From positions 9,672,001-9,736,000 of the forward strand of contig OX579637.1 of the NCBI GenBank assembly GCA_951230915.1: DNA of 64,000 nucleotides, read 5' to 3'. Origin of the DNA: Antitrichia curtipendula (lineage: Eukaryota; Streptophyta; Bryopsida; Hypnales; Leucodontaceae). A program made the translations under genes and the position numbers. The notes under the pieces were generated by a model. That model was not told the DNA's origin, did no database searches, and saw only the letters and a list, made by a program, of their open reading frames with translations. Each line of letters opens with the position of its first letter. Within the stretch, counting starts at the first letter, position 1. Of this stretch, positions 8,548 to 52,082 are shown one piece after another.

Positions 8548-10406
8548 ATGATGGATATAGGACAATTCTATAAATTGCCCAAGCCGATTCTATTTAGGAA
8601 TTTGTCTAATGCTATAAGGAACAATAATGCTAACTATAAATAATTAAGCACAAAGGTGCATAAAGGTAAACTTCTAATCATAATTTCTAAATTAGCCTAG
8701 TGAAATTGAAGATTGGGAAACAAAAAAAACAATGCAAAAAAATGATAAGGAATATAACTAGAACATTTTGTTGAGATTTGACAAATGATAAAAAGAAAAA
8801 CTTCACAATATGGTCACCATTAAAGTTGAGTAAGACAAATTATTCACAACAATCTAAAAAAATGAAAATTATCCTAAACATCATTGTACAAAATATGAGC
8901 TAATGATATGAATTTTTTAGTGTAGGGTAGTTAAAACAAATTTAATAAGGTTATAGGGTGGATTCATTCACAATGCTAGGGTAGGTAAGGTCCCTAAAGA
9001 CCTTAAATTATAAGAATTGAGCAAGTCATATTGGTAAACGTATTCTACACAATCCAAATAAATCCAAACATTACTATAGAAAATATTGTAAAATCCAAAC
9101 AAAGACATGTGCAATGAAAATGTAGGCACAATAGAAAGCATTGGTTGCCAACAAAAATTCAAGGCCCGAAGTACCAAGTGATGGTTAGTGGTCATTGAAA
9201 AGCTTCAACCTAATCCAAAGTTAGAAGCACTCTAAGCTACAATAAAGACAAGTGGCAATAATCATAAGGAATTTAAAAATACTTTTAATTATCAAGAACT
9301 AAAATTAAACAAATTCAAAGTAGATACCAAGAAGAAAGGTAAATTAAAAGTCACGTTGTAGGACTAGACTTTTACAATTTTAGTAAATAAGCACATTTGA
9401 ACTTGTGTACAAAAAGGAATGTCAAACATTTGTGATTAACACACAAAAGGTCAAGTTGGAATTGAAAGCAAACTAACACTGACCTCTTTAAGTTAGACAC
9501 TTTGTATATGCAAAAGAAACACCTAGTTTAAATGGCCAATACAATTCACATAACACAAGAAATCTAGGCGTAAAATCACCTTAACAAAAAAACAAAGTAA
9601 AGAACTAGAATTATGTTAATGCCATTGTTTTTTATTTGACATGCAGTTGCCCAAGTTCTCTGCATTGTTTGCATCCAGCTGGTACAAGTTTCTTGTAAAT
9701 TTCCAATTTCCACATGGTTTACCAACTCAATTCAATAGAAATAATAAAATTAGGGCCACCTTATGCTTTCCTTGCTTGAATTGATTCATTAAATCTATAG
9801 TTTGTTGGGATAGTCCCAATTTGGTATCCATTCTGAGTATAATTTGTTGCACCCTCTCAATGCACCAACAACCATCATCTGTTCCATTTGCAATTGGATT
9901 AGGTCAAGTTATCTTTGAAGTCTTGTCTCACTTTTTCCTCGTAGAAGCTCCATCGCTAAGACTCTTAATATACATACTATAGTCACACTAGACTACATGT
10001 ACTAGACTAAAGTAGCTGTAAAATAAGCATCACAATTTTTTAAAGATAATTTTTTTTAACCGAATCAACTTATCTTTTGAAAGAAAGAGATTTCCATTCA
10101 ATTGGCTAACCAAAATCAACATGCAAATCTTGTAACACTCAAGACTTAGACTCACACCCCTCAATATTGCCTATTTGTATTGGTACCTATCTAACATGCC
10201 CACCACTGTATCTCTTGCCTCTAGAATTACAACTATTGCATCAAGTCCATCATCTACAAGTTCGTTGTTTACATGCAAGCAATCAAGTACAAATAAGAAC
10301 TCACTTGCCTGTGATGTATTATGGAGAATTTTGCCATTACTTGTTGTCTTCTCTCCATTTGTTTTATTTGGTATTTATGCAAATTTTTAGAGTTCATGCC
10401 TTGCAT
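8548..10406. other. Intergenic sequence left of the giant element
   Basis: AT-rich, with no gene or repeat that I can support. Two overlapping short frames at 10,167-10,472 lack any domain; one of them runs into the terminal repeat of the adjoining element, so they are treated as chance. Confidence 0.55.
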
Positions 10407-10414
10407 CTCCTAAG
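10407..10414. repeat. Left 8-bp target site duplication CTCCTAAG
   Basis: CTCCTAAG directly precedes the terminal CAGGG of the large element and is repeated exactly right after its other end at 28,094-28,101. Eight bases is the standard duplication length for hAT transposons. Confidence 0.9.
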
Positions 10415-10431
10415 CAGGGTTGTCATAGTGG
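10415..10431 (+). repeat. Left terminal inverted repeat
   Basis: CAGGGTTGTCATAGTGG. It matches the inward-read right end at 16 of 17 positions and the left end of the second copy at 38,042 (CAGGGTAGTCATAGTGG) at 16 of 17. Confidence 0.9.
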
Positions 10432-10745
10432 GCGGACGTCTGATTCGGACGTCTGATTCGCCCGTCCGATAGAGGTCTCGCCCGTCCAATAAGGTCAACA
10501 CTAAGTTGACTTTCTACCACTGAAAAAATAGGTGATGTGGCTGCCACTTTGACGCCACCTGGTTGCCAAGTAGGATCCAGCCATCTAGGGCGCGGACGTC
10601 ACCGGTAGGGGCGCGGACGAAAGCCAAGGCGGGGACGAGACTGTGTCTGGGCGCGGACGCCAGACAGGGCACGGACGGAAGTCAGGGCGTGGACGTCAGA
10701 CGGGCGCGGACGAAAGTAGCCGGGCGCGGACGTTTTTTACTAGAA
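10432..10745. repeat. Left subterminal array of GGGCGCGGACG motifs
   Basis: Just inside the left end lie CGGACGTCTGATTCG repeated twice and CGCCCGTCC twice. From 10,588 there are about eight variants of GGGCGCGGACG, all in the same direction and about 15-25 bp apart. Clustered short repeats inside the ends are known transposase-binding sites in hAT elements; that role here is inferred. Open frames across this block are by-products of the repeats. Confidence 0.75.
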
Positions 10746-11037
10746 CAATCTCACCATTGAAATTAATGCATTTTCATTCCATATAAAAGATATTAATATT
10801 TTAGATTTTCCTACTATCTCCTACCTACTTCTACTTAACATTTTTTTTAATAATGAAAATGAAGCTTTTTCGAATTTTCTTTTTTTTGATAGATTTTCAA
10901 TTCAATTTTCCATTGTAAAGATTTAAAGCTCAAAACTTATTAGTGAAAAAATTTAAAGTTTAAAATGTTTAAAGTCAAAACATCTAGTCGCATAGTGTGC
11001 AGAAAAACTAATTTTTTTGTAAATTTAAAAGTAAAGA

Positions 11038-11365
11038 AGAGGAACCTTGCTCTGTAGACCCGTATTTTTTTATCCTTATAAGCGAATGAATTTAATTCAT
11101 TTGCCATTAAGAAGCAATAAAGGGGCCCTCGTTCAATTGAACCATATTTTTTGGCATTGTAGGCGAAAAAATACTAATTCCTTTTGAATTTATAAGCACT
11201 AACTTCCAACAAGGAAGGACCTTTGTTCATGCGAACCACATTTTTTAAATTAGACACAAATTCAAGTAATTTTTTTGGAAATGAAAGGGGGCCCTTGTTC
11301 AATCAAACCATTTTTTTCCATTGTGAATTTCAAAGTAAAGGTAAGGGGGCCCTTGTTGGCTTGCT
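11038..11365. repeat. Imperfect tandem repeat, about five units of 60-95 bp
   Basis: The core GGGCCCTTGTTCAAT followed by AACCATATTTTT-like sequence recurs with variation near 11,041, 11,121, 11,215, 11,288 and 11,345. Units are AT-rich apart from the core. No function is evident. The block lies in the spacer between the left array and the 3' end of the kinase-like gene. Confidence 0.55.
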
Positions 11366-12071
11366 CACTCACTCACTGCCTCACTCAGACCCGCTCTTTG
11401 TCGAAGGCTTGGTGAATTAAAACAGTTAGGAATTCACTTCATTTTCATATTGAAGAGTATTATATATTTCAAAGTCATTCCTTCCTACATCTTACGGGCT
11501 ACGGTTCTTTCAAAATTTCAAGGTGCCCACAGCATCTACCATATGCCCATGCTCTTTTGCATTCAAAGTTAATTGCTTACTCAACATTCATAAATTCAAA
11601 AAAGTCATACAATTACCATGATAGAAGAAAGACCAAATTCTATATTACAAAATTTTTCCTATACATTCGTGTCTTTATGTAGCACTTGCGAAATACATAT
11701 ACTCTTCTAAGTACAAAAGTGTGGTCTTCCTATAAAACTGCTACATACTAAATCTGAAAAAGTACAAACTATATACTATATATGATAACAACAATCAGGC
11801 ATAGTCCAACAGTGAGGTGCCTTCCTTAAAGTGTCTAGAACGTCAGGTACAGACGCCCTCTCGCCTACATCTACTTTCTGGAGGCTCAACACCTTAGTCC
11901 TCAAATTCTGATATTGCTTTGGTTTTTTGGTCGTAAAATACTTGGAATCCCATTCTTCTTTCCAAATTTGATATGTTATCCACTCCGTTGCATATGCATC
12001 AGCAGCCATGGAATACACCTTTTTTTGCATGACTTCAAGCGAGGTCTCTGACCCCTTCTCTCCGTACACGT

Positions 12072-14214
12072 TGTCGGGTAGAGAGGAGCGCGCTTAGGGA
12101 ACACACGAGGTGTCTGGTTGCAGGTTGTGAATGTAGATGAAAGGTAAGTAACAAAACTTGAATCTTCACTTAATCTTCTCTTCAATCTTCGCTTGATCTT
12201 CACTTCAATCTTCCGTTGACCTATTCTGTGGTGGTTCTATAGGGCCAAAGGTAAGGGTGTGTTATAAGAAACAAGGCCTCGGACGGGTAAAATGGGACGG
12301 CCAAACCACGAGTTGGCCGTCCGAAAGATTGGCTCCTAAAATCAAACCCTCGGTGACCAGGAAGCGCCTTTCACCGGTGGGAACAACAAATAAGATCAAC
12401 CATGTGGGCCATTAACCCCACTTCGTCGCCACAAACACGAAAATGAACACTTACTGGATAACCACGTCTCGCAACAGGTTTACAATGCAGAAATTGAATT
12501 GCAACTAGCTTCCAAATTCGGCTAGGAATAACAGAAATGAAAACGAACCACAAGCCACAACACACTGGAGACCCTCAAAGCTCTTCAAATCTTCATCTTC
12601 AAGTCTTTAAGCCTTCACATCTTCAAAAATATCTTCAAAACTCTAAAAGAACTCCAACTTCACTCTTAAACTACCTAAACTCCACTCAAAAAAAGAAGGC
12701 AGCAGACCTTTCTATGCTTCCATACTCATAACTTTTGCATTTCTTTTTCAAATTAAATTATTGATAGCTTTTCTGAGAGCTAACAAAATTTCCTATCACT
12801 CATACAACTTTCAAGTCATTCCAAAACTCTGTCCAACTTCTATGACCTCTCAAAGTTTCGGTCCATAGATGGTAAAAACAAGAGACTCTCTCACCTTCCC
12901 ACACTCACAACTCACTCATAAATGCTTCAAATTTAATGAATGATAGCTTTATAAAAATCTAACAACATGTACTACACTTCATCAAAGTTTCATTTTAAAC
13001 AAAGGACCTGTCTGTTTTCTATGGTCGGTCGAAGTCTTAGCCCCTCTTCATAGGAGGCAGCAGACCTCCTTCCACTCAAACAAGCACAAATCTCAACTCA
13101 CAACTTCAAATAAAGCAAGAGAGAACAATTTGAAAAGCTAACAATATGATAAACAACTCCTCCAATTTTCATAATCAAATTCCAAAAAACCAATACACAA
13201 TGAGCTCCCAAACACTCGGTTCCCCCAAAACAACATTGAGAGAGAAGATGAATAGTGTCCATCTTTTCCTCCCCTTTTCCAACACCTTTTGCCCCACCTA
13301 AACAAGTGTACATCAGCCCTTAACTCCCTCCTAAAGCCAACTTACACCTAATGGCCTTCATATTTGGCCCCACATCTATATCTTTATCTTTAACTTAGAA
13401 GGAAAATCACTTCAAAGTCCAAACTATTTTCATTCTTTCCTTCTACAACTATAACCAAACAAAATAGTTTCAACAAAATACTTCAAATATGATTGAAGTA
13501 CTAACATTAAACCAATGCCTATTAGAGGTAAAAAACTAGAATTCCAAGACTAATTTTACTCCATCTGCAAGAACTTGAGAATGCGCTTGATAGTCGCAGT
13601 TGTGTAATCAATACGACCTGCCTTTGTTAAAGGATTCACTGGCCCTTCTAACCAACGATGGTGACCACGACTTCCTTCAATAGGCTTCATCATGCAGTAA
13701 TATTGATCGACGTTGAGACCTTCGAAACATCCTTCAAATGTCACATCTCGACTGCCAGGCTCAACAAATCCAACCTGCAACAAAATCACCAGTGCCCGAG
13801 CGTCACGTTGAAGATTCCCGTGCCATCGCCGCTCTACACGAGGTTGCTTTGGTGGTCGAGAAGGCCCAGCTTCTTCTTGTGGACGCTCATGCGGCGGCGC
13901 AAGACTTAGTGGCAGAAGAGGTTGATCCGGTAGTTGTGACAATGAAAATTCAAATCCAGGCTCCGATTCTACTTATTCCTCTTGGGACTCTAAAAAAACC
14001 CTCCAGTTCGACATTCTGACTATAAAGTGGAAACCTAATACCACTAATGGACTTCAATGAAACTCTTAAGCAAAGCCGTCCTTTTAAATAGATGACATGT
14101 ACATCCACGAAACGTCATCTTGAAGTTATTCAACAAAATAGCGTCACCATGAAGCTACTCAACAATACATATTATAATATGTTTTTATACTATGAACAAA
14201 TTTACAACATGACA
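12072..14214 (-). mobile_element. 2.1-kb TG...CA insertion inside the kinase-like gene
   Basis: The kinase reading PELFY-V-YGE is continuous in the second copy of the element (around 40,370) but is split here by 2,143 bp. The insert starts TGTCGGG and ends CATGACA, and is flanked on both sides by ACGT (12,068-12,071 and 14,215-14,218). TG...CA ends with a 4-5 bp duplication suggest an LTR-type element. I found no LTR pair and no reverse transcriptase, so it may be a non-autonomous relic. Splice sites at these edges are poor, which argues against an intron. Around 12,700-13,150 there are three loose repeats of about 180 bp containing GGCAGCAGACCT or similar. Confidence 0.5.
13556..13942 (-). 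CDS. Hypothetical 128-residue ORF inside the insertion
   Basis: The frame has a Pro/Arg-rich start (PDQPLLPLSLAPPHERPQ) and a more globular end containing GFVEPGSRDVTFEGC, NVDQYYCMMKP and IKRILKFLQME. A good acceptor (TTTTGTTGCAG) sits just before GFVEPG, so the C-terminal part may be a separate last exon of a longer gene. I do not recognise the family. It lies wholly within the TG...CA insertion, so it most likely belongs to that element and not to the kinase-like gene. Confidence 0.35.
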   Translation of the reverse strand: MSQLPDQPLLPLSLAPPHERPQEEAGPSRPPKQPRVERRWHGNLQRDARALVILLQVGFVEPGSRDVTFEGCFEGLNVDQYYCMMKPIEGSRGHHRWLEGPVNPLTKAGRIDYTTATIKRILKFLQME

Positions 14215-15659
14215 ACGTAGAACAATTCGGGGGCTGCATGTTTTTGTTGATTTTTCTCCCGTTCGAGCTCTCCATGGTTCGATAACCATACCTTGATGGT
14301 TCCTTCTCTACGCCTCGACCAGAAAGCCCCTAGTCGCAAATCTCTATGTACATTGTGTTCTCTTTCCATTCATCAAAATAGAACAAAACGTTAGATGGAG
14401 TAATGTCATTGTGTAAATATTGTACTTCATGGCATTTTTCCATAGTGACAAGCAATGATAAAGCCAAGTTCATGCGATTTCTGCTATAAGTTGCAACCCA
14501 ACCTATTTCTTGCATCAAACTTGTATCATGTTGTCTCATGATGTCATCCACCTCCAGTGATTCACTCACTTTTGAATTGTACTTGGCTAAAAAAGAAATT
14601 AAAGAGCCTCCATTCCACCATAGCGTGTAGCCTTCCATTGTTTTGGGATGGATGTACGCAAGTCTTATGATACCAGGATGTATCACTGGACACCCCCCCT
14701 GCCTCATTCACAATATCTTGGCGCTTCTCTTTCTCATTTGAGGTCTTCAAAGTCTTTCCGGCGAAGCAAATCCAACTGGGAATGCTTTGTAGTCTTGTCA
14801 GCACCACCTTCCTCACGGTCCCATATGATCTAGTCGCGGTCTGATTTGGCATGGGATTCACTTTTATGCAACTTTCCAGCCACTTGAATGTTCCGCTAAC
14901 GCAATGAGCTTGTATTTGGTCTTCAAGCATCGCTTTCCATGGTGCTTGTTTCTTTCTACGGAAAGAAGAATATTGTTGGGAGCACTTTTGAACCTGGATC
15001 AATCTCGAAGCAAACTCCTTGTCATGCGTGTCCCAATCACTACCATCCTCCTTCTTCTTTGTGTGATAACACCCATTTGCCACAATATTAGTGGTCAACT
15101 GCAACACTTGTTTATCCAACCATTCAGAGTGCAACCAATAATCTTGATAATTGTTGAATTGCTATGATGCTCTAAATTTGGTCTCCAACTCTTGCCGCAC
15201 TTCACTAGTCAAGTTGTGGTATCCTTCTTTGTTGTAGTTCACGTATTCTCTGGACATCATTCCAGAGCTTCATCGTGTTTAAAAATTACCGCTATTGCTC
15301 TAGCCTCGAGCACATATTTGTGAGGGGGCATGTTTGGATTAGGTTGATTTTTGCGCTTCGACCTGCTGGATGATGAGGGATTGGATGACTCTGAAGCCAC
15401 TGATACGTTTGATGCTAGAGGTACCACTTCAAAATTTGCATCCAAGTCTTCAAATACCGATCGGTGACCCAATGACTCACCCCCTTCTTTTGCCATTATA
15501 CAATCTTTTAAAACCACCAAAACTTTGGAAAAAATAAAAAAAACCAGGTGCTATATGTGGGTCAAGCCCGATCACCCACCAAACTCACGTCCAAAGGTTG
15601 CTTTCGCAAACAAAGGTATGAGGCGTAGGGCGTGGACTTGGCAAAGACAAATGGGGGTT

Positions 15660-15990
15660 TAGGTGGGATTTTATAGTCCCACGTCCGCGCCCTAGCGAGA
15701 ATAAGGCGTGGACGTCCCCGCGTTGGCTCGGGGGGACGCATGCCGGCCCCGCGTGGTTCGCGTCCCCGCCCCGATGCGTGGGCGCGAACCACACGAGGGT
15801 CAGTACACGTCCGCGCAGGGGCGGGGACGCGTGCCGGCCCCCGCGTAAATTGTGTCCACGCGTAGGAGCAGGGACGCGTCCACGCCCCAACGTGGTCAGG
15901 GTCGTCTCCGAGCCAGGGCGCGGACGCGTCCGCGCCCTGGCTCGGTTAGGGACGTCCCCGACTATATAAAGGCGTCCCCGTCTCATTTGT
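15660..15990. promoter_or_regulatory. GC-rich divergent promoter between the two cargo genes
   Basis: A block of roughly 300 bp is packed with GGACG and GTCCGCGCCC variants in both directions and is bounded by outward-facing TATA boxes. CTATAAAA on the minus strand (15,669-15,676) faces the kinase-like gene. TATATAAAGG on the plus strand (from 15,963) lies 134 bp before the RING-gene ATG. The second copy keeps the layout (TATATAAAG on the minus strand near 41,552; degenerate plus-strand box). The repeat motif is the same as in the subterminal arrays, so one protein could bind ends and promoter; that is inference. Confidence 0.65.
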
Positions 15991-16096
15991 CCCCGCCTTG
16001 CATATTCCAGATCTTCCACTTCTTCATTGAGTTGGTTGTTGGCGTTGTGCAGGGTGACTTATTTTGACATACCGCCTTTGAACGTCCTTTTTCACG

Positions 16097-18472
16097 ATGG
16101 CAAACCTACCGAGCACTAACGAAGAAGAAAGAGACGGTACCCAAGAAAGGCTGGGAAAGATACATCCAAAGAAATTACACGTACTTCGAAACCTCAACAA
16201 ACTGGCATTTAGAGGTTGGAATGAAGTACCTGACCCATGGAGTATTGAGACTTGCACCACTTACATTGAATGGTGCCACATTGACAAGGCCTTCCCAGAA
16301 GAGCGGCACAACCATCACCGCCGGTTCCATAAAGCCATTTTGAAATACTGCATCGATGAGGCCTTCAAACAACGATGCATCGAAATATATCAGGTGTTGT
16401 ACAACAAATCCACTGTAAGAAGGAATGAAGTCCACCTTTTCATTGCACAAGGTGTGCATGTGGAGGTCAAATTGAACAAGTGGGTGGATTGGTCCACCTT
16501 GAAGAAGACGCCATCTAAGATCACAATACTGAAACCATGCGATGGAATAATTGCAAGTGGGGTTATGAGGTATCTTGAAGGAGGGCTGGGCAGGTTCAAC
16601 ACACGTATTGAGCCGCCCGACACTTATGAGACAATAAACTCTACAACGGACAATGATTCTGATGGGAATCATGAACCAAAGGTATTAACCCAGAGAGGAG
16701 ATCAACATGCAAAAAGACGGAGAGCTTAGCGTGCAGTTTGTGAAGAACTTCCGGAGCAAGGTGCTCATGTAAAATTCCATGGCCCTGAAGAACCAGTGGT
16801 TGGAGTTCCTGCGGAACAGGTCCAAGCGCCTGATGAACCAACTATTGGAATTGTTGATGTCATGACTGCTGCAGAAGACAAACAGAGCTTGAGGGTGCAG
16901 TTACAAGACACAAGTGTTGAAATGCATGCTCTATATGAAAATGTGGGCAACTTTAGGGAAGAAATCAAGCGCAAAGACGAAATAATTGCTCAACAAGCAC
17001 GTGAGATAGAGGAGCTTCGGCAATCTCTACAAGCAGCACAAATGATGAACAAAGGTCAGGATCCACGAGGACACGCAGAAGGACCTCCTTGCGATTCTCA
17101 GATTCCGGTGCAAAATGTGCACGATGCTGCTGCCATAACTACAGAAGAAGATTCATTGGCCTTTCCCAAACTTCCCACCACCGCCAACGTACCAATGCAA
17201 ACTGAAGTTGAGAGCAAGGTTATGGACAATAGCTCTGAGCTGAACAACTTGCGAGCGGAAAACCAAAAATTAAAAAGTCGTTTGCATGCCTTGGTGGAGC
17301 AGTACTACCAATGGAAGTTGACATGCGTGTTCACCGTCGACAAAACCCGACAATTGGTAGCTGAATTCAAAAAAATGGACCACAGCTACAATCAGCACAA
17401 TCAAAAAAAGGTGTTTGGCTTGACTTCATGGGCCCTTGTGGATGATCTTTTCACTCCCAACTTGGAAACCATTGAGCTTGATGGAGTTGATGGTGAAAAA
17501 AGTCAAAAAACAATCATTGATTGGTCCCAAGAAGGGTGGGATTACAAAAATCAGTTTGGGTCGAAATTCAACTACAAAGGGGAGCCGTTGTTGGAGTGGC
17601 CAAATCCTTCAGGTTTTGTGCACGATGGGACCGTATGCCCCATTTGTATGAATCCATTTGGCCCTAAAGGTGGAATGCACTTGGGCACGTGCAACCACTT
17701 GTACCACCCATTTTGCCTCATTAGTTCTATGATTATCTGTCGTCGATGCGCATTGTGCAAGGCTCCTTTCTATAAGCGCTTGTACGAATTATTTGGCTTG
17801 ATCTAATACATGCCACCACATTGGGAATTCCATATCAATAATGCTAATGATCACTATAATATGTGGGGAACAAACTTGGTGTGGAGTTGGAAATTACAAA
17901 TGACATCGTTGGACAAGACACAGGTCGGTGTTAAAATTGGTTGGGAGAGTGACCCAGATCAAATTGTCCAAGTCTGCCACCACTTAATTCCAATGAAAGA
18001 CAGGCAGAGCCAAGGACGACAGAATTTTTACTTCCAATGCTTCAATGGGCATTGGGACGAGGTTGGAAAGAAGTTTCAATTTAGACCTCACCCCAGGCGT
18101 TGGTTGTGGGGCGTTGATGGAGTCCGTGTCACCGAGGACGACGGGGTTGGAATTGAGGAGGACCTTGACATGCCCAATCCGGCGGAGCTTGCTCAATTAT
18201 CAGAATCTAAGTGGAGGAAAACTTTCAAAAACGAAAGGCTGGATTTCTTCTTTAAGCAGCACAGCCCAGATACACGCCGAGGGCTAGAGAGCCTCAAGCA
18301 GTCGCAAATTATGAGGATCATTTTGGAAGAAGACGGACCAGCGAGGAGAACTCGGTCTGCGGTTTGTAAACTTCAAATAGGCTCCGTTGAAGATTTTCCC
18401 ATGCAGCACGGCACACACGACGATGAGGCTGGACCTAGTGGCACTGCAAATAGTCCAATGAATATTGACTGA
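16097..18472 (+). pseudogene. RING-H2 finger cargo gene, copy 1 (two in-frame stops)
   Basis: One frame of about 790 codons runs from ATG 16,097 to TGA 18,470-18,472 and is interrupted only by TAG at 16,727-16,729 and TAA at 17,804-17,806. The N-terminal 200 residues belong to no family I know (FPEERHNHHRR is a conserved patch). Residues about 265-320 form a coiled coil (EEIKRKDEIIAQQAREIEEL), with a shorter second one near 380-400. Residues 514-554 are a textbook RING-H2 finger: CPIC, then CNHLYHPFC, then CALC, all eight zinc ligands present. The C-terminal 220 residues are Trp-rich and end acidic. RING-H2 proteins usually act as E3 ubiquitin ligases; activity here is inferred. The second copy reads GAG at the first stop and CCC at the second, so both stops are probably decay, although the TAA could mark a genuine short form ending just after the RING. 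Confidence 0.75.
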
Positions 18473-19049
18473 GTGCATTTTCTAGTGTGGTAATTATTAA
18501 TTACTAAGCAGCAAATCATATTTTGTGTATACACTTAGGCACTTACTATTACCGATGCTTATAGAATTGCTACTTCGGTACTTTGGTTTCTTAAATAGTA
18601 TTAGACAAAGACTTGTGGATATGCATATTTTCTCATGGAAAATGCGCTATATGCTTTTCCAATTTTGTACTACATGATGCATATGAAATACATATATTGA
18701 TTAATGATTATTGAATTGTTGAATTCCTTTGCGTGATGCATGTATAATTCCTTGACTAAAAACTCCCTGAGTGATAAGTTTATAAACTTCTTATACTTTA
18801 TGATTATCAACATTTCAATGTGAAAAGTATTTTAACTATTTAAAAAAAAAATTACAAAATGTAGTGTAATAGAAAAAAGAAAGCACACATAATTTTTTTT
18901 AAATGAACAGAATAGTAGGGATGCAAAATATATATTCTTGGACATCCCTAATCATTATTTCTCACAAACAAAGTGGTTACAAAAAAAACAATTCAAATTT
19001 GGATTTTGAGGAAATTCTTAAAATTAAAATTTTAATTTGGTGCAATTAA

Positions 19050-20604
19050 CCCCTAAGGTAAGAGGCTCAAAAAGTGACCATCTAAGTGCTGATCTGCCTT
19101 TTTCATGTATCTCCTCACATGGAAGTATTTTTAGTTTATTTTTCAGTCAAAGAAAAATAGATGAGGAATCTAACTCAAGTTGTTTCATATTTTTTGAAGC
19201 ATTATTGAATTAGTTACAAATTTTTGAACACAATATGATGTAGGTCCCTATTTGTGAACATAGGCCCTCAGAAACTCATTCATGCATAGTTTGAAAAAAA
19301 ATTAGGCCTTATTCGAAAACTAGCATTGCAACATGTACAAAGCAAATGAAATGGTTTCTAAAAGCATCCCTTTCTAAATCTGAAATGAATGCTTGATTTA
19401 ATCATTATTTCAAATTTTTCAATGCTTGTAAGAAGGTAGTTGAACAACAAACTCTAATTTTGAATTAAATTGGTAGACACCTAACCACTTAGTTAGGAAT
19501 GAACCCCATGTGGCTCTTAAACCATCCATTGAAGAAGTTAAAACAAATCTCATCAAGCTCCATTGTAATTGACATTTCTATTTTCCACAATTCACATGTC
19601 CATTTCAGAGCCCCTACTGGATGGTTGAAAATGCTTGGGCCGTTTTAGAGCCCTCTCCCATAAAGGTATCTGACTATGTTTTCAACAAAAATGCTCCAAA
19701 ACTGCCATTTCTAGTACACGTACCAAGTTTTGGAGAAAAAAACATTTTTGGACACATGTAACCATAGGATCTTGTAGCTAACTGGTTTGAGAAGATGGGG
19801 AAAAAATTTCAGAAATTTCTGCCTTATAAATTGCAAGATATAGGCATTTGAAATGACAAAAATCCCTTTTTTTTTTCCATGCAAAAATCCGGGCAGCTGC
19901 ACTTCACAAGGTCCCACCCTTTTTGAAAAAATGTCCAAAATGTTGGTGCTCCTTTGGGTTCATTCTTCAAGGCAAGTTGGCTACATGTTTCAAAAAATTT
20001 AGATCACTTCGAACTCTACAACATATAGGAAAAAATTTGTAAATAGAAAGAAGTAGAGAATGATTCAAAATACTAAATTGGTAACAATTTAGTTATAGAA
20101 TTGAAAAATGCCAATCCCAATGGTTGTAATGTTGTAATAAACTATCTACACCTAAATTTTTTATTTTTTTCCAAAAATATTGAAAATTGAGTTGAATGAA
20201 GGACTTCAAAGTTTATTTTAGAGTGGAGATTCCATAACTTCCTGCTAACTACCTTCAACTAAAACTCCTCATAACTTTCATCTCATAAATCAAAATGGAA
20301 CAATTCAAAGCTTCCCATGTATATATAAATCTAAAGGACCAATTTCTATTTTTTATTTTTTATAAAAGTGATTTTAAAAAAAGTTTTATTTGTTGTCCGG
20401 GTTGCCCGCCGAGCAATGAAAACTACAAATCATACAATAATTTTTTAACCGTATAGTGAGAAGTTATGAAAATTGTTGGGCCTTAAAGCTACTCCTTGAA
20501 AAAATGTTTTGTTAAACTTTCAAAGAAAAAAATAAAAATTCCATTCGTAGTGAGCGGCCAAAAATAACTATGTTGCCAACAAACGATGTTTGGTCCTTTA
20601 GGGG
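19050..20604. mobile_element. 1.55-kb element with CCCC ends and TTAA duplications
   Basis: The left edge is CCCCTAAGGTAAGAGG and the inward-read right edge CCCCTAAAGGACCAAAC. TTAA flanks both (19,046-19,049 and 20,605-20,608). TTAA target sites with CCC-starting inverted repeats are characteristic of piggyBac-type elements. No transposase frame is present, so it would be non-autonomous. Internal sequence is shared in inverted orientation with the element at 33,704-34,621 (for example the GCAGCTGCACTTCACAAGGT region). Confidence 0.55.
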
Positions 20605-21746
20605 TTAAGACTTAAGAACACAAAAATAATTGGACTGATTCCAAATCTTTTGGAATCTTTCAAACATTATGCTAATGTTCCATTGTTTGGTTCTAAACAT
20701 TATGCTATCAACTATCAATTATTAAATTTTAAAAGAACTGTATATATAATCTTTAAATTTTTTTGGTATGATCCAATTCGGTTAATTCTGGCTTTCTATT
20801 CCTTCTGTTTCCAAATTTGTATAAATTCTAGAAAAAATTTTATTTCTCATTTTAAAAAATAAATAAATACTGCATTTGCCTTAGATTCCAAAATAATTTT
20901 TTTCCAAGGGGATAAAAGCACTATTCATCTTCTTATAATTTTTCGTCTCCAAAAGCTGCATTTTTTGCCTCCATAATTGAGCATCAATAATTGTTAAAAT
21001 CTAAAAATGCAACGGTCAATATCTTTTATAATTAATTCCACACATTCTACTATTCTAAACATAATAGTCTTCTTTTTGGTATGCTTCTATTAAAAATTTC
21101 AAATACATCCCATACACAAATGAACCTTTGAAGTAGAACCCAAAAATATTAACTTGTATTTGAAGGGATTTCCAAATCCTTATAACCCGTACTTCAACTT
21201 GAAGCCCTTGAAGTACAAGCACATAGCATTTAACTTGTATTTGATTTGAATTTTAAATACTTAGAACAACAATTTACCAACACCATAAAGCCTTCAACAA
21301 TAACTAAATAAAACATATCTTCTATATGATTTGAAATCAAAACCCTTGTAGCATCCAGTAACAAGACTAAAGCCTTGAACTTGCTTCAAAACCATTAGAA
21401 CTTGTATTTTGTTTCCTTTCCAAATCCTTGTAATACATTTGAATACATTGTAATACGTCAATGATGAGAATTCCTATTTCCAAACCCTTGTAGCTTCCAT
21501 TACCAAAACTAAACCCACTCACTTAGAATCTACAAAATATGAGACGTGTTTGATTTGTTTTTTGAACTCATAACCCTTTTAGTTCCTATTTGGAGAATTC
21601 ATAAATGCATCCTTCAACTTGAATTAAAAAAAATATGTACCTTATCTTTTGTTATAAATCCAAAAAACTCTAGTGTCTACTTTCAAATTTTTTTAATTGA
21701 AGCGAGCATGTTAATTTTCATTTTCTGAAATTTCCTTTTGTGGGAT

Positions 21747-22010
21747 GGGTCCTAGTTCGCAAGTGCATGGTGAAGGCATGAAGGAGAGGTCCGAGCCCAA
21801 GAAGGGAGCAACATGCTTCCACACATGATCTTTGAACTTAAGAAATTGTTGGACCCCCTAATGCAGCCATTGACTTGAAGATATTTTCCTGAAATCAAAT
21901 TAAAGGCTAGCTGTATTAATGGGTTCCCCCTCTCCATGGAAATTAAGATTCTATGACTAAGTTCAACTTCTATTTCAACTTCCCCCCATATTGTGGCTGA
22001 GGAGTCGGAC
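21747..22010. repeat. Internal direct duplication, first copy
   Basis: The stretch starting GGGTCCTAGTTCGCAAGTGC and ending with GGCTGAGGAGTCGGACGTCC reappears with few differences at about 23,065-23,335, an offset of about 1.32 kb. Looser similarity extends several hundred bases to the left in both copies, so a segment of roughly 1.3 kb upstream of the transposase has been duplicated in tandem. A third, poorer version sits near 46,330-46,440 in the second element. Confidence 0.65.
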
Positions 22011-22082
22011 GTCCGTGCCCTTTCCAAGCGTCCGCGCCCCTCCGGGACGTCTGCGCCCCTGCGTCCGCGCCCTAACCTAGGT
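21999..22082. repeat. Internal GTCCGCGCCC motif cluster
   Basis: Four or five variants of GTCCGCGCCCC(T) follow one another, in the opposite orientation to the left terminal array. It is the left partner, by duplication, of the larger cluster at 23,330. Confidence 0.6.
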
Positions 22083-23064
22083 GTATGTGAGGAAACGTAT
22101 CCAAGTGATAAATCTGAAATTCCTCCAAGCCAAGTTCAAACTCCCTCCAAAAAAAGTTTGAACTCCCTCCAAGCCAAGGTTGAACTAACTTCAAGAAAAA
22201 TACGAACTCACTCCAAGCCAAACTTGAACGTGCGAACTCACAAACTTGAACACAAAAATATCTTAAGTAGTACTTCATTGCAATCCTAAACACTCTAGTA
22301 GCCCCTTATCAAAAAAAAATGTTGAAGGTGAATTAAACAAAAATCTTAACAAGCATTTCATTTCAATGCAAAAGCCTTCTCCAATCCCATCACCAAAAAG
22401 TACCGTTGAACTTGAATTCCAAAATAACTTAAGTGGTATTTGATTTCTATTCCAAATCTTTCTAGGATCATCCCATCACACAAATTAAATTTTTAAGTTG
22501 AATGATTGAAATCTAAAATAAAGTGATTAGTATTTAATTTCAATCCCCAAGAGGCTAAGACCCAAACCGGTTTGGTATCCCCATTGGACATTGGCCATTA
22601 CAAAAATATACCGTTGAACTTGAATTCCAAAATAACTTAAGTAGTATTTGATTTCTATCCCAAACACTTCTAGGATCACCATTCTAAAAATACACCGTTG
22701 AAGTTTTGAAGGCCCTTACCCTTGTAGCCCTTTTTTGCAAAAACAAATCCTTCTAATACATTTTAATGTATTGTAATTTTAATTTGATTTCAATCCAAAA
22801 CCTTGTAGCTATTTATTTCCAAAACAAAGTCTTCAACAAAAAGCCAAAAAAGTATAAGTTGATTATGATTTGATTTGTAAACTCCAAATCCTAAATCCCA
22901 AATAGGTTCTAATTAGAAGAATAAAAAATGAATCCTTAAATTTGATTATAAACAAATATGTACCTTGTCTTTCATTAGTACTCCAAACCCTTTGAGATTC
23001 TACTCACACAAATTTTATCCTTCTTGTTTGGAAGTTCATTTTCATTTTCAAAATTATTCTTCTT

Positions 23065-23335
23065 TAGATGAGTCCTAGTACGCAAGTGCATGGTGAAGGC
23101 ATGAAAGAGAGGTCCGGGCCCAAAAAGGGAGCAACATGCTTCCACATATAATCTTTGAACTCAAAAAGTTGTTGGACCCATTAATGCAGCCATTGACTTG
23201 AAGATATTCCCCTGAAATCAAATTAAAGCCTGGCTGCATTAATGGGTTCCCCCTCTCCGTGGAAAAGAAGAATCCCATGACCAAGTTCAACTTCTATTTC
23301 AACTTCCACCCCATATTGTGGCTGAGGAGTGGGAC
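23065..23335. repeat. Internal direct duplication, second copy
   Basis: Repeats 21,747-22,010 with small differences, including the ATGCAGCCATTGACTTGAAG and GGGTTCCCCCTCTCC blocks. It leads directly into the motif cluster and TATA box of the transposase gene, so this copy is the one in the promoter-proximal position. Confidence 0.65.
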
Positions 23336-23640
23336 GTCCGCGCCCTTTCCAAGCATCCGCGTTGTGTCATTACGTCCGCGCCCCTACGTCTGCCCCTTGA
23401 CCAGTAGTCCGCGCCGTGTCTTGATATCCGTGCCCCTCCATGACGTCCGCGCCCTAACGTCTGCGCCGTGTCTAGACGTCTGCGCCCCTGCGTCCGCGCC
23501 TTGACCAGACGTCTGCGCCCTAATAGGAAGAAGCATGACGTTCTTCACCAAACCTACCCTTCTCTGACGTCCCCGCCCTTGCAAAATCCGTCCGCGTCCT
23601 ACACTCCCAGGGTATAAAGGCAACTCCACTATTGTGACTT
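23330..23640 (+). promoter_or_regulatory. Motif cluster and TATA box of the transposase gene
   Basis: About a dozen variants of GTCCGCGCCC or GTCTGCGCCC run from 23,335 to 23,600, followed by TATAAA at 23,613-23,618. The transposase ATG is at 23,851, leaving a leader of about 200 bp. The arrangement (array, TATA, leader) mirrors the promoter of the RING gene. Confidence 0.6.
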
Positions 23641-23850
23641 CCCTACATTTGTCATCTTGGCCTCATATCTTGGACTTCAATCCAGTTTGAACTCCTTGTG
23701 AGTCTACTTGGGTGGAAAATGGCCCTGGTTTGCTGCTGAGGTGATGTAAAAATCAGTTCAAGCAGTGGATTGGCGCTATCTATTATTTTGTTCTTTTCAT
23801 TTGGTATGATAGCCTCTTCTACATCCTAGAAGAACACATTTCCATTTGTC

Positions 23851-26800
23851 ATGAATGCAATGGGAAATCAACGAAGGCAAACAAAAGAATCGGAACCATG
23901 GTATAATTTCTTTGATAATGGGAATAAAGTGAGCTGTGTTTTTTGTAATGCGACATTCAGCTATAAATGCAAGCGCGCGTTTGCTCACTTTGGATATGGC
24001 GCGAAGTCCGAGAGGTCAATTTGTCTTAGTGCGCTGCGAGTTGTGGGCCATCAATTTGCAAATTGTGCAAACTTTGTCCCGCAATGATTGAGCCCCGAAG
24101 ACATGTATGAAGGAGAATCAATTTTGGGTGGTCCATCGAGAGCAACTCTAGTTGCAAATTCAAGCCAATCCACTCAGAACGAAGTGACGGAAGGGGGCCC
24201 CGGTAGAGACCAAGCTGAAGAGGTTACTCTCCCTGATGGGAATGATCCAATATAGAGGTCCCAAAGTCTTGCTGCATCAAATTCCACGAGATTTGGGACA
24301 TTACTTCAGCAACGCATGAAGGATGCTTTAAATATTGCAAAGAGGAAGGAGTTGGATGACAAGTGGACATCGTTTTTTTACAAGGCAAATGTGCCATTTA
24401 ATGTGGCAAGGAATCCAGCCTTTATTGAGGCTGTGAAGGCAACCTCAGTGGCAAAGTTTGACTACAGTCCACCTTCTTATCATCAATTCAGGACTAAGTT
24501 GATTGAACCCAAAAGGTTGCAAATCGAGAAGCAAATCGAAACCAAAGTTGGTTTTGCAGTGAAGCATTATGGAGTGTCAATATGCACTGATGGTTGGAAT
24601 GACGTAAATCGGAGACCCCTAATGAATGTGATGATGTTGTGCCCTAATGGTGATGTATTTTTGGGGTCCATTGACACTACCGACAACAAAAAGGACATGC
24701 GCTATGTAGCGGACCAGATGAAAGTATTCATTGAGAAAGTGGGTTCGAAACACGGGACGCAGGTGTGTACGGATAATGCAAGGAACATGCTTGGGGCATT
24801 GGACGATATTGTTCACACGTACCCCCACATTTTCAAGCAGGGTTGCATGGCACATGCCTTGGATCTCATGTTGGAAGATTGGGCCAAAGTACCTGAATTC
24901 AAAGATTTAATTGAGAGGGCAAGAAGATTATGCCAGTACATTCGAAACCATCATGCAACCATGTCTGCTTTTCCAGAGTTGAGTCCGAACCTTTAGCTCG
25001 TAGTGCCAAACGAAACCCGCTTTGCTTGTAATTTCCTCATGTTGCACCGACTGGAGAAACTTTGAGGAATACTACTACGGTTAAAAGACCATGTGCACGT
25101 TCAAACTACTTTGATGGTCTGCAAAACAGACAGAATGGACCGCAAGCAGCTACGACTGCTCGTAATGTGGTGTCAACTATTGAAGATGTGGGCTTCTGGC
25201 AACAATGCGTGAATTACGTACACATGATTGAAGACGTGTTGAAGGCATTGTGCATATTTGATGGCAAAGAACCAGCTATGAGTTGGGCGTGGCTCGTAAT
25301 GCACAATTTGAGAAGCCATGTGTTTTCTTTAAGAGAGCCACCCTTCAACCTACGAGATGACATAGCCACCACCATGGAAGAGTCTTTCCAAATGAGGTAG
25401 GACATGGTCTTTACGGATGTTCACTACGCCGAGGCCCTTCTAAATCCGTATCTCTTGGATAACATGGTGCTTAGGGCTGATGGAGTTGCCCTCCGTACAT
25501 TGTACCAAGTCATCCACAAAATGGCGAATGTAGTGGGTGTACAGTTTAACGACGTGCTGGTGGAATTAATAGAATTTGAGGAGGGCACGGGGCCATATAG
25601 TGCTGCGGAGACACCTGGCTTCCGAGCAACACAGATGATTCCCCACCAATGGTGGCACAGGGTTGGAGATCGAGCACTATCTAAGATTGTCGTGCATATT
25701 TTAGCATTGACATGTTCAGCATGCTCGTGTGAAAGGAATTGGAGTATGTATTCCTTTGTCCACAACAAGGTCCGGAATCGGTTAGTCCCCAAGAAGGCTG
25801 AGTCATTGGTATATATTTATACCAATAACCGTGTACTTCAGCAAAGACTGGGGGCTGATCCGGTTTGTTGGTACGATGCTAATATCTACTCGGAGGATTC
25901 TGACCCAGATGCCCTTGGCCCCATTCCGATAGATGAACGCAATCGTGAATTTGATGTACTGGTAGCTAACGAAGAGGTTGATGTGGAAGCAAACCGAGCA
26001 CCCCAAGAGTACCGACCAAATCCAGATTTGTGGAGGGCGGGGGCCGATCACCTCGAAGATGCTAGAAATTATTACAGAGATGATGATGAAGTGGAAGAAG
26101 AAGTCTTCCATGGTTGCTAGGGCCCTTTGGGATCCGATCCTCACCAAAGTCCTCCTCCCCCAGGCCCTCAAAATCCAGTTCTTCCGGAAGTACAACCTCT
26201 GCCTTCGGAGAGTGATGATCTGGATGTGATGGACCCCAATGATGATAATGGTTCCTCCCACAATGACGATGACCTCCCTCTAGAAAATGAAGGGGAAAAT
26301 GGACCTGGAAATGGCGGTGGAAATCTGAGGAACAATGCAATTCAGAATACTGAAGGATCTGTTTGCAATCGTGATGGTAGTAGGAGGCCTGGAAGAGTGA
26401 GTGGTCGCGATCGTAGTAGAGTTGTCGAAGGGCAGCATGGCCAGAACATTGGAAATATAGGAATGGCACAACTGATCGCAGGAAATGTCAGGGGGGGTCC
26501 TGTAGCGGGAGCAAGGCATTTTGACCCTGAACGTTTAGATCCCAGTGATGTTTTTGCGTTTATTGACCCGCTTGAAGATTGAGTCCGTATACCCCCACCG
26601 ATTGCAGTGCGTACTGTTCTTTCTAACCGGAATACACCGGTGCAACATTTCCTTAACCCTTCTTCTCCCGCAACTTTGAGCATTCACCGTCAACCTTCTT
26701 AAGAAGGGCTAGGTTCAGTGGAAAATGTTGAATTGACGCCTCGAAGCATTTCAGATGTTACAAGGGGTGGTAGACCCCCTACCGCTCCTCGACCTGTAGT

Positions 26801-27383
26801 TCACCATATTATGGGTGAATATCAACAAGGACGTGGAAGGACTACCGTCCATAGAAGAACAAGGGGTCGTGCAAGGACCAGAGATGGTGCTGGGATTAGA
26901 GGTCGTGGTATTAGAGGTGGACGAATCAACAATAAAGCGTCATCGTCTAGGCCTTCTAAACGCCCTCTCCTAGGAATTAGGGTCAGAGACCAGAACGTGG
27001 TGATAGAGCCATTTTTGAATACGTATGTTCTAGGACCAACTTTGTCCATTCCAGCGTATGTCGTTCCTTGAGTACAAGGAGGCCCCACTATAATTTCTGG
27101 CACGGAGGACCCTAGAGCTCAACGACATAAGAGGTTTAAACGCAGTCGTAGGCATGGTGAATTAGTTGTGGAGCTTCAAAATGAGAACTCCGAAGTAGAA
27201 GGTCACTACACCACAAATGGTGACGATGGAGGAAATGAATGTGGAGCTAGTGAAGGCGGTGATGATGAAGACGACCTTGATTGTGATGAGGCACCAACAG
27301 ATGATGATGTGGTCATTCGAAATGCTGCATTAGGGGGTCCGGGTATACAAGAAGTCCGCAGATCAAGCCGTTTCAACAATTGA
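23851..27383 (+). pseudogene. hAT transposase, copy 1 (BED, DUF659, dimerisation domain, long tail)
   Basis: Domains in order: a BED zinc finger (WYNFF, CVFC, AHFGYG; first 55 codons); a DUF659/RNase-H-like core with CTDGWND and VCTDNARNM carrying the expected first two catalytic aspartates, and GCMAHALD matching the CxxH insertion motif; then the hAT C-terminal dimerisation region (ALTCSACSCERNWSMY) with the glutamate-bearing block. Stops include TGA 24,085, a TAG near 24,256, TAG 24,994 and TAG 26,118, plus a frameshift near 25,040-25,070. Past the dimerisation domain the same frame continues for more than 400 codons to 27,383: acidic, then RG-rich (RTRGRARTRD, IRGRGIRGGR), then acidic, ending EVRRSSRFNN. 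Total length near 1,180 codons is well above the 600-800 usual for hAT. The tail is broken by stops at 26,580, 26,699 and 27,069. Both the function and the loss of it are clear. Confidence 0.85.
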
Positions 27384-27854
27384 GGGGCACCTCACACCAT
27401 CTGTAGATCTTCATTCATCGTTAGTTCAAGACAGTTGCACCAATTGAAACATGAAGTAATGAAGATCTACAAGAACAAGAAGGAGGGTTTGAGATAACCA
27501 ATGGAAGCGGAGGCGCATCTTGAAAGTATAGATTGATTGTGTTGTGAAATTGTTATTGTACTAAACATCACTTGAAATTTATAAATGTTATTGGTTATCT
27601 GAAATAACAAAGTCTCCAAATCTCCAATTGTGTTTGCAAAATTATTACATTTGCCATGCATGTAGACTTGTATATGATTTGATTTCCAAACCCTTATACA
27701 GTTGTATCCTTAAATTCATAAACCAACCTTTTTGAAGATGACTACAAAGAAATCTGTGTGTATTGAATATGGATTTGAAACACTTGTAGCCACTATTTTT
27801 CAAAATAAAGTCTTAGACATGAACCTGGAAAAGTAGAACTTCTACTTCATTTGA

Positions 27855-28076
27855 ATTAAACTGCAGCGTCTCCGCCCTGACGAATCCATCCGCGCCCTGT
27901 AAAGTCCTCACCCTGACGATGACGTCCGCGCCCTGATTCCAGCATGGACTGCCACCGTGGCAGCGAGTTGTCAATTGGAAAATTGGAAAAATGAAAGGCG
28001 TCTGGGTTGTCTGAGACGTCCGGTTGTCCGGTTCGGTTCGCCCGTTTGTCCGTCCCGTCCGATCACCTGGACCTGT
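27855..28076. repeat. Right subterminal motif array
   Basis: CGTCTCCGCCCTGACG, TCCGCGCCCTG and GACGTCCGCGCCCTG variants, followed by ACGTCCGGTTGTCCGG and CGCCCGTTTGTCCG. The direction is opposite to that of the left array, so the two ends are mirror images. Confidence 0.7.
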
Positions 28077-28093
28077 CCACTATGACAATCCTG
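28077..28093 (-). repeat. Right terminal inverted repeat
   Basis: CCACTATGACAATCCTG, the inverted partner of 10,415-10,431 with one mismatch. Confidence 0.9.
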
Positions 28094-28101
28094 CTCCTAA
28101 G
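28094..28101. repeat. Right 8-bp target site duplication CTCCTAAG
   Basis: Exact copy of 10,407-10,414. Confidence 0.9.
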
Positions 28102-33703: not shown

Positions 33704-34621
33704 CCCCTAAAGGACTAGCATGCGATTTTTGTCAGTACAAAAAAATTTGGGCAGGTACTTGTGACTGGAGATTTTCATATTTTTGGCTGAAATTTTAATA
33801 GAAGGTGGGCGTGAGGAGTACCTTTCATATGCACTAAATTTCATGACATTTGGAAATAGGAATCAAAAGTTATGGCCAAATATTTTACTTTTTTTTGTAA
33901 CTGGGCAGTCTAGGCAGATCAGAAAAAATCACTTTTTTCAAAAATAAATTTGAAATTGGTTTTTTAGAGTTATATATATACGTAGAAAGCTTTGAATCAT
34001 TCCATTTCAACCAATGAATCAAAAGTTATGAGGAATTTTAGTTTGCGGGCAGTTATAGATTCTCTACTCTAAAATAAACTTTGAAGTTGTTTATTTAACT
34101 CAATTTTTAATATTTTTTTAACTTTTTTTTCATAGGATGTAGGTTGTTTATTACAACATTACAACCATTGGGATTTACATTTTTCAATTCCATAATTAGA
34201 TTCTTAACAATTTAGTATTTGGGATCATTCTCTACTTCTTGCTACTTACTGTTTTTTTTATATGTTGTACAATATCAAATGATTTGAAAATTTTTAAGCA
34301 TGTAAATAATTTGCTTAGGAAAAAGAATTCAAAGATGCACCACCATTTTGGACATTTTTTTATACAAATGTGACCTTGTGAAGTGCAGCTGCCCTGTTTT
34401 TTGCAGGGACAAAATTTTTTTTTGCCAATTCAAATGCTAATATCTTCCAATCCGCATGGTGGAAAATTCTGAAATTTTTTCGACATCTTCTAAAACTAAT
34501 TTATTATAAGATCCTATGGTTACATGTGTCAAAAAAAAAATTTCAAAAATTTGGTTCTTGTACATAAAAATGGCAGTTTTGGAGTGTTTTTGGTGGTAAC
34601 ATAGTCATAGAACTTTAGGGG
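33704..34621. mobile_element. 918-bp element with CCCC ends and TTAA duplications
   Basis: The left edge is CCCCTAAAGGACTAGC, the inward-read right edge CCCCTAAAGTTCTATG. TTAA lies on both sides (33,700-33,703 and 34,622-34,625). It shares internal sequence, inverted, with 19,050-20,604: for example CCTTGTGAAGTGCAGCTGCC here and its complement there. No coding capacity; probably a piggyBac-type MITE. Confidence 0.6.
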
Positions 34622-46760: not shown

Positions 46761-48224
46761 TTAGCTTTTTTTTCTTGGACTTCAATTCATTTTGAGCTCC
46801 TTGTGAATCTACTTGGATGGCAGATGGCCCTGGTTTGCTTCTAAGTTGATGTCAAAATTAGTTCAAGCAGTGGACTAGCGCTAACTATTGTTACTGGCAC
46901 CTTGTCCTGTGGAATATCGTTTTTTATATTCAACACAAAAAAGGAAGAAGGTGTTTGCAATCATCCGTGAACGCAATGGAAAGTCAACGAAAACAAACGA
47001 AAGAATGGCAACCGTGGTACAATTTTTCAGAGAATGGGACTAAAGTGACTTGTGTTTTCTGCAATGGAACATTCAGTTACAATTGTGAGCGCGCTTTTGT
47101 TTACTTTGGATACGGCAATAAGTTTGAGAGGTGAATTTGTTGTAGTCTGCCTTGGCCGGTGCAATATAGATTTGTCAATTGTGCAAGCTTTGCCCTACAA
47201 CAAATGAATCTCGATGACATGTATGAAGGAGAATTGGTTCCGAGTGGTCCATCGAGAGTAGTTCCAATTGCAAGTTCAAGCCAATCCACTTAGAATGAAG
47301 TGACGGGTGGGGGCCCGAAAGAAGGGGCTAACCTCTCTGAAGGGAATGACCCTTTATACATGTCCAATAGTCTTGTTGCATTGAATTCCACAAGATCTGG
47401 GCCATTACGATAGCAACGCATTTTAGATGCCTTCAACATTGCAAAGAAGGAGTTGGATGAGAATTGAGCAAGTTTTTTCTATGAGGCAACTGTACCATTT
47501 AATGTGGCAAAGAATGCAACCTTCATTGAAGCGATGAGGGCATCCTCCGTGGCAAGGTTTGTATACAGTCCACCTTCTTATCATCAATTGAGGACTAATT
47601 TGATTGAATCCAAGAGGTTGCAAATCAAGAAGCAGATTGAAATCAAAGTTGGTTTTCCAGTCAAGCATTATGGGGTGTCAATATGTACCGATGGTTGGAA
47701 TGATGTCAATCAGAGGCCCCTCATGAATGTAATGATGTCATGCCCCACAAGTGATGTATTTTTGGAGTCTATTGATACTATAGAGCAAAAAGAATCCATG
47801 CGCTACATGGCAGACCAAATGAAAGTGTACATTGAGAAGGTGGGTCCTAAATATGTGATGCAAGTTTGTACAAATAATGCAGCAAACATGCTTGGGACAT
47901 TGAACAATATTGTTCTAACATACCCGCACATTTTCAAGCAAGGCTACATGGCACATGCATTGAATCTATTGTTGGAAGATTGGGCCAAAATAGAGGAATT
48001 TCAAGATTTAATTGAGAAGGCAAAAAGAGTGTGCCAATACATTTGGAACCATTATGCAACCATCTTTGTTATTTGCGAGTTGAGTCCAAACCTGCAACTT
48101 GTAGTGCCCAGTGAAACCTGCTTTGCTTGGAATTTCTTCATGTTGCATTGACTGGTGAGACTCAGAGGAGTATTGGAGCAATTGAAAGACCATGTGCGTG
48201 TTCTAAATTACTTTGATACCCTAC

Positions 48225-51727: not shown

Positions 51728-52082
51728 CCTACGAAATGAACAAAATGGAGTGTAGGCAGCTATTGCTTCATGTAATGTGGTGACAACCATCGAAGATGTG
51801 GCCTTTTGGCAACGATGTGTGAATTACATGCACATGACTGAAAATGTGTTGAAGGCGTTGCATGTGTTGATGGCTGAGAACCAGCCATAGGTTGGGCATG
51901 GCTTCTAATGCACAATTTGTAAGCGCACGTGTATTATTTAAGGGAACCACTTTTTAGTCTACAAGCTAACATAGCTGATGTTTTGGACATGTCTTTCAAT
52001 GCAAGATGGGACATGGTTTTTACTTACGTTTACTATGTCGGGGCCCTTTTGAATCCATAACTCTTGGATAATGTGGTGCTTA

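Follow-up and report, generated by a model that had tools for sequence, protein, structure and literature searches.

Plant hAT elements normally carry a transposase gene alone and are usually a few kilobases in size. Here we analyse a stretch of 64,000 nt from the moss Antitrichia curtipendula (assembly GCA_951230915.1, contig OX579637.1, referred to as C5, positions 9,672,001–9,736,000; 'the window' below), in which an element of 17,679 bp, e1, holds, between hAT ends, genes for a transposase, a predicted protein kinase and a predicted RING-finger protein. Like Ac/Ds and Tam3, e1 and its relatives have 8-bp target-site duplications, short ends of the CAGGG type, a transposase with DUF659 and hAT dimerisation domains, short non-autonomous derivatives and subterminal motifs; unlike them, they measure about 14–18.6 kb in the copies read and contain two further conserved genes. 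The element is a hAT by every feature tested (8-bp duplications, short inverted ends and transposase domains), and what is new with respect to known hAT elements is the kinase–RING cargo. Taking together the ends, the duplications, the gene content in several subfamilies, the linkage, the purifying selection and the conserved catalytic and zinc-binding positions, we consider it very probable that large plant hAT elements with transposase, kinase and RING as their regular gene set, and with a cargo under selection, form the lineage to which e1 belongs.

Accessory genes have been described in other DNA transposons. In TET-bearing fungal IS3EU families an alpha-kinase gene lies opposite the transposase, and hAT7 families carry TET/JBP genes (PMC12730594). 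These are likewise DNA transposons with accessory enzyme genes, but their hosts are fungi, their kinase is an alpha-kinase rather than a member of the Pkinase family, and the hAT7 duplications are 7 bp long; the word RING is absent from the text of that paper. Plant Mutator-like elements (MULEs) with extra open reading frames (ORFs) include MuDR, with mudrB, and VANDAL/Hiun, with VANC, a protein with DUF1985 and DUF287 domains that works against silencing and whose recognition sites are short motifs repeated in arrays along the element (PMC6446971, PMC5735166). The e1 lineage resembles them in that plant elements encode accessory proteins in addition to a transposase; it differs in superfamily, and whereas VANC binds DNA, the additional genes here encode a kinase and a RING protein. 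An element-specific motif exists in e1. Pack-MULEs, too, hold host-type genes between transposon ends, but as fragments without a transposase (PMC6446971), whereas here a transposase and whole, selected genes occur together. A search of the open-access literature (subscription papers and Repbase reports lay outside it) turned up no description of plant hAT elements in which a kinase and a RING gene are conserved.

Ends and gene content of e1 and its relatives

The left terminal inverted repeat of e1, CAGGGTTGTCATAGTGG (10415–10431, plus strand), is matched at 16 of 17 positions by its complement at the right end (28077–28093, minus strand), as determined by end comparison, and the element is flanked by a perfect (8/8) duplication of CTCCTAAG read at 10407–10414 and 28094–28101. 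Both the ends and the duplication had been reported in a preliminary description of the locus, which placed the element at 10407–28101; these outer limits are right, but the range includes the duplication, and the element proper spans 10415–28093. At zero to one mismatch the end sequence occurs 134 + 154 = 288 times in the 400-Mb host genome, compared with 0 + 0 occurrences of a reversed control pattern, which excludes a chance origin of the ends. An Rfam scan of the window gave no match.

ORF and Pfam analysis of e1 recovered the three gene units, one of them a transposase, that had been noticed from the sequence: a kinase gene on the minus strand, and RING and transposase genes on the plus strand. 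The kinase gene (11776–15496) corresponds to a single open frame of ∼526 aa in intact relatives; in e1 it contains stops and a frameshift and is split by a nested insertion of ∼2.1 kb (∼12072–14214) that has ACGT at both flanks and is absent from copies A and B, described below. The kinase and RING genes diverge from a common upstream region (15497–16096), which contains four GCGGACG motifs (15682–15933) and which we infer to be a promoter for both. The RING gene (16097–18472) has two in-frame stops (16727–16729 and 17804–17806), whereas the open frames of its relatives reach 784–828 aa. A non-coding region 5′ of the transposase (21421–23595), with an internal duplication of ∼660 bp and GCGGACG motifs, precedes the transposase gene (23860–27383), whose product matches DUF659 (122.3 bits, cut-off 34.7) and the hAT dimerisation domain PF05699 (30.4 bits, cut-off 21.4); several stops interrupt it, while relatives have open frames of ∼1155–1200 aa. 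All three genes of e1 are disabled; it is a dead representative of large hAT elements that form an abundant lineage.

Copies with the same ends as e1 (class 1) were sought among the first 100 of the 288 end sites, all of them exact, which gave 14 adjacent facing pairs at distances of up to 60 kb; 12 of the 14 were read. Copies A (18,412 bp, duplication 8/8) and B (18,464 bp, duplication 7/8), both on C2, have exact ends and all three genes and are colinear with e1 at 84–93% identity. They are what the preliminary description had proposed to look for, namely end pairs with 8-bp duplications that enclose the complete gene set. A third class-1 copy (C5:7.89M; 14.2 kb) has three mismatches in its left end, a 7/8 duplication and all three genes. 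Ten of the 12 pairs read are short derivatives of 2.4–6.5 kb that contain none of the three genes and match e1 (over at least 60 bp) solely at the ends and in the non-coding part 5′ of the transposase (window 20268–23521), parts of which are thus retained; their duplications are 8/8 in six, 7/8 in three and 6/8 in one. The two pairs not read in this way, 39 and 56 kb apart, have RING matches inside according to the match lists, one of them together with a kinase match. A copy with the transposase alone was found neither among the 12 end pairs read nor among the other copies read end to end.

The same gene set recurs behind other ends. Seven further transposase loci were taken from the top of the match list and fetched, and in five of them kinase, RING and transposase all lie within the stretch. 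Of the other two, the C10 locus has RING and transposase, with a short kinase match only, where the fetched stretch ends; at C7:13.45M the transposase stands alone within 20 kb, and listed kinase and RING matches lie 36–39 kb upstream near an exact left end. Class 2 (left end CAGGGTTGTCATATCGG) is made up of two of the seven fetched loci; each of these two copies is bordered by an 8/8 duplication and carries the full gene set. Class 3, to which one of the seven fetched loci belongs, has unequal ends, CATGGTTGTCATACTG and CCGTTATGACAACCCTG; its right end occurs at 89 exact places in the genome (control 0), and nine copies, picked because all three genes were listed, have duplications of 8/8 (seven copies) or 7/8 (two copies). 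The ends of classes 2 and 3 are related to those of class 1, the left and right ends of class 3 being less alike. In class 3 all three genes share one strand, whereas in the other subfamilies the kinase gene is opposite to the RING and transposase genes. The idea that the pair is cargo of e1 therefore holds insofar as same-ended copies with duplications contain all three genes, but it has to be widened from one element to several subfamilies: the kinase–RING cargo is a trait of several subfamilies and not a single captured event.

Linkage, constraint and predicted proteins

A first look at the genome gave 1248 transposase, 1305 RING and 1270 kinase candidates, which are not verified copies. 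At least 150, 114 and 138 of these, respectively, were scored; all of them match, many have open frames, and the following counts rest on them. A listed transposase and/or kinase lies within 25 kb of 91 of 114 RING matches (both in 58), a listed transposase and/or RING within 25 kb of 119 of 137 kinase matches, and a listed kinase and/or RING within 25 kb of 129 of 150 transposase matches. At the same distance a transposase is found near 79 of 114 RING matches, against a mean of 2.4 when RING matches are placed at random. The preliminary description had held that its proposal would fail if the kinase and RING genes were found mostly outside such elements; instead, most scored matches of the three genes adjoin one another. 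The three proteins of other copies are 58–89% identical to those of e1, and the identities of the three correlate pairwise (r = 0.93, 0.95 and 0.97 for 36, 36 and 45 pairs from ten elements, nine for the kinase), indicating that the three genes travel together.

Ratios of non-synonymous to synonymous divergence (dN/dS), calculated pairwise by the Nei–Gojobori method between classes 3 and 2, where dS is 0.86–1.8 and the values are consequently rough, were 0.124 and 0.098 for the kinase, 0.108 (C part) and 0.247 (N part) for the RING protein, and 0.169 and 0.166 for the transposase. Selection thus seems to have kept the kinase and RING genes. As a separate observation, the synonymous divergence of the transposase between the two classes (0.86–0.89) is about half that of the kinase and RING genes (1.4–1.8), which could reflect exchange or conversion of the transposase between subfamilies.

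By profile, residues and fold, the cargo kinase is predicted to be a eukaryotic protein kinase of the Pkinase family, the fold of which differs from that of alpha-kinases. A copy-B fragment (36.1 bits) and the protein P0001 (33.4 bits) exceed the Pkinase cut-off of 31.7. In 17 aligned sequences, reaching down to 27% identity to the first, G223, K248, E265, H363, N370, D389, G391, A423 and P424 are invariant, and D365 and E425 are conserved in at least 90%; we take these residues to be the Gly loop, Lys, Glu, H-x-D, Asn, D-x-G and APE motifs. The structural model (pLDDT 79.9) has a helical N-terminal part, and its best 50 matches in the PDB are all kinases (best E 5e-8, target TM-score mostly ∼0.6). 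Protein searches gave 19 kinase relatives of 28–88% identity, mostly on short contigs without context. In the kinase tree the closest external relative groups with class 3 (100/100), apart from the other elements of this genome, a grouping that points to subfamilies predating the species; the RING tree left out the matching relative and is therefore silent on subfamily age.

The second cargo protein is predicted to be RING-type and ubiquitin-ligase-like. Two relatives exceed the zf-RING_2 cut-off in Pfam, P0042 (30.5) and, barely, P0035 (27.4), and P0023 (26.1) falls below it. Seven of the eight ligand positions are invariant in 19 aligned relatives that reach down to 38% identity to the first, the eighth being H, C or another residue. 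A profile search returned RNF24 (2.8e-7), followed by RNF38 and Arkadia, and a fold search matched RING domains only at a weak E of 0.49. Outside the RING the model is weak (pLDDT 62.3), and the protein has long helices and further conserved parts without a convincing match. Its relatives from protein searches number 32 (34–87% identity, mostly on short contigs); those of the transposase number 44 (26–76%), many with both DUF659 and the hAT dimerisation domain, and named plant relatives of the transposase are only 27–32% identical. No relative was confirmed in the prokaryote genome contigs searched.

The second copy in the window and other features

An older copy, e2, lies downstream of e1 in the window (38042–∼53717, plus strand). 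It begins with the left end CAGGGTAGTCATAGTGG and has the genes in the order and orientation of e1 (kinase on the minus strand, RING and transposase on the plus strand), with colinear stretches 68–81% identical to e1. Its transposase is interrupted by an insertion of ∼3.5 kb (about 48218–51739) containing a 517-aa open frame on the minus strand that has no Pfam match. The right end of e2 was looked for in the window and not found; the sequence CAGGGTTGCTATTTTG at 53727, roughly where homology to e2 stops, is perhaps the start of another hAT-like insertion that took this end away. Also within e2, an inverted repeat with 102-nt arms, 97% complementary and separated by 2 nt, occupies 52076–52281. 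Another inverted repeat, of ∼0.7 kb and 76% identity, has one arm inside e1 (19657–20375) and the other between the elements (33925–34621), with parts also in e2. Positions 59438–60896 hold an array of ∼12 units of 127 bp each.

Elsewhere in the genome, a fourth class of the pair was found at C2:52.532–52.536M, consisting of a kinase with a 533-aa open frame (L028:5992–7590) and a relative of the RING N-part (8754–9995), both ∼31% identical to classes 2 and 3; the stretch read past this pair was too short to show whether a transposase follows. The class-4 kinase has at least 83 scored genomic matches, most of them 92–96% identical and many with open frames. Several distributions set C5 apart: none of the 89 exact class-3 right ends is on this contig, where 8.3 are expected (P ∼2e-4), old class-1 RING copies cluster on it (9 of the best 22 matches, P ∼8e-5), and its class-4 kinases are the more diverged ones. 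C5 may therefore have a different history, e.g. low recombination or that of a sex chromosome. Oppositely oriented pairs of matches whose scores are equal or almost equal were seen at C2:8.07/8.14M, C4:25.94/25.96M, C8:3.92/3.99M, C4:12.77/12.81M and C1:21.56/21.61M, as if from large inverted duplications. Just past a class-2 element (L034, C2 ∼4.5375–4.5406M), open frames were recognised by eye as a Ty3-type retrotransposon polyprotein, on account of which a fungal host was considered. A plant host is indicated by an array of plant-type telomere repeats at the start of contigs C1 and C2, together with the CG/CHG-biased sequence decay described below; a plant-type 5.8S fragment, with up to 3 mismatches allowed, had no match in the genome.

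Possible roles of the kinase–RING pair

The motif GCGGACG occurs 18 times in e1, compared with 0.72 in shuffled sequence and none in ∼30 kb of flank. Six copies, all in one orientation, form a left subterminal cluster (10432–10732, plus strand), four lie between the kinase and RING genes, seven upstream of the transposase and one near the right end. hAT transposases bind subterminal repeats. The transposase of this lineage would cut and paste the element through its terminal repeats, and GCGGACG, found close to the ends and 5′ of each of the three genes, is probably a binding site for it. The kinase and RING proteins would work in trans on behalf of the element, as accessory factors; in the simplest form they would serve a single pathway, with a protein first marked by the kinase and then ubiquitinated through the RING ligase.

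C-to-T (or G-to-A) changes make up 200 of the 303 unique ones found in the RING gene across six class-1 copies, with per-site frequencies of 0.064 at CHG, 0.048 at CG and 0.027 at CHH and trinucleotides showing no CpA bias. From this pattern the host has probably methylated class-1 copies, which makes silencing a plausible target of the cargo, and no more than plausible. Stops fall on W, Q or R codons in 94 of 156 cases, against a background of 13.9%, and several recur in different copies, so that methylation hotspots may account for stops that copies have in common. Lesions common to e1 and A, considered as proof that both moved after the death of the kinase, are weakened as evidence by such hotspots.

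Several observations count against a conserved, selected cargo or against parts of its description. Among the matches listed, 19 of 150 transposase, 22 of 114 RING and 17 of 137 kinase matches have no listed partner within 45 kb, though some of them may have partners outside the list, as even copies A and B, which hold all three genes, are only partly present among these matches. Two recent class-2 copies are less constrained, with dN/dS of 0.357 for the kinase and 0.658 for the transposase. A need for the cargo is not demonstrated by class 1, where e1, A, B and every other copy examined is broken; e1, A and two more have a stop in common at the kinase DWG motif, perhaps because they moved once the kinase had been lost. 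Two further class-3 copies were checked and neither showed a duplication (0/2). At the protein level, e1's own kinase and RING (19.8) matches fall under the Pfam cut-offs that those of relatives exceed, and the PDB alignments of the kinase model have an rmsd of 6–11 Å. The motif GCGGACG, finally, was chosen as the most enriched 7-mer of e1, and only a single occurrence out of the 18 lies at the right end.

What the pair acts on can be named only tentatively. Host silencing machinery or its regulators are the leading candidate class of target, though at well below even odds, and regulation of the transposase itself is equally likely. A more specific proposal of the first kind, 'mark and destroy', in which the kinase would phosphorylate a host silencing factor and the RING ligase would send it to degradation, so that copies move despite methylation and the pair is kept through the subfamilies and an older sister lineage, is slightly more doubtful still. 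In the self-directed alternative, which we also hold to be possible without favouring it, the transposase, or a partner of it, would be modified or degraded by kinase and RING, which would in this way tune the element's own activity rather than host silencing. The GCGGACG motifs upstream of all three genes mean that the element may regulate itself, and the amount of any single protein can be controlled by a kinase together with a RING protein; this agrees with gene content and selection as well as a host target does, but on the present evidence no better.

Other explanations concern the origin of the pair. It could be a separate mobile unit that hitch-hikes in or beside hAT elements, as the inversion of the kinase in one subfamily relative to the others and the class-4 pair directly downstream of a class-3 element would allow; we regard this as improbable, because all complete elements read have the pair between their hAT ends, the three genes show concordant distances and the pair was not seen to have ends of its own, though no systematic search for such ends was made. 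Plant DNA transposons are known to capture genes (PMC6446971), but accidental, Pack-type capture of host gene fragments by one hAT copy is very unlikely to explain whole genes with open frames, low dN/dS and the same content in at least three subfamilies, with a listed partner at 129 of the at least 150 scored transposase loci; protein identities of 58–89% to e1 also exclude recent segmental duplicates of e1. Viruses often carry kinase or RING genes, so that a virus-derived or virus-like element could be imagined. This too has very little probability, since the hAT transposase and the duplications account for mobility; in viral contigs, pattern scans for the kinase and the RING matched 26 and 11 stretches, none confirmed as a relative, and no virus family exceeded its Pfam cut-off in the 14 window ORFs scanned.

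A large hAT lineage with a conserved kinase–RING cargo, having many copies, open frames and dN/dS of ∼0.1–0.25, makes it possible to test whether a DNA transposon employs phosphorylation and ubiquitination, tools better known from viruses. The apparently selected cargo suggests that the transposon brings its own tools acting on proteins of the cell, and it opens the way to asking how transposons counter host control through protein modification.

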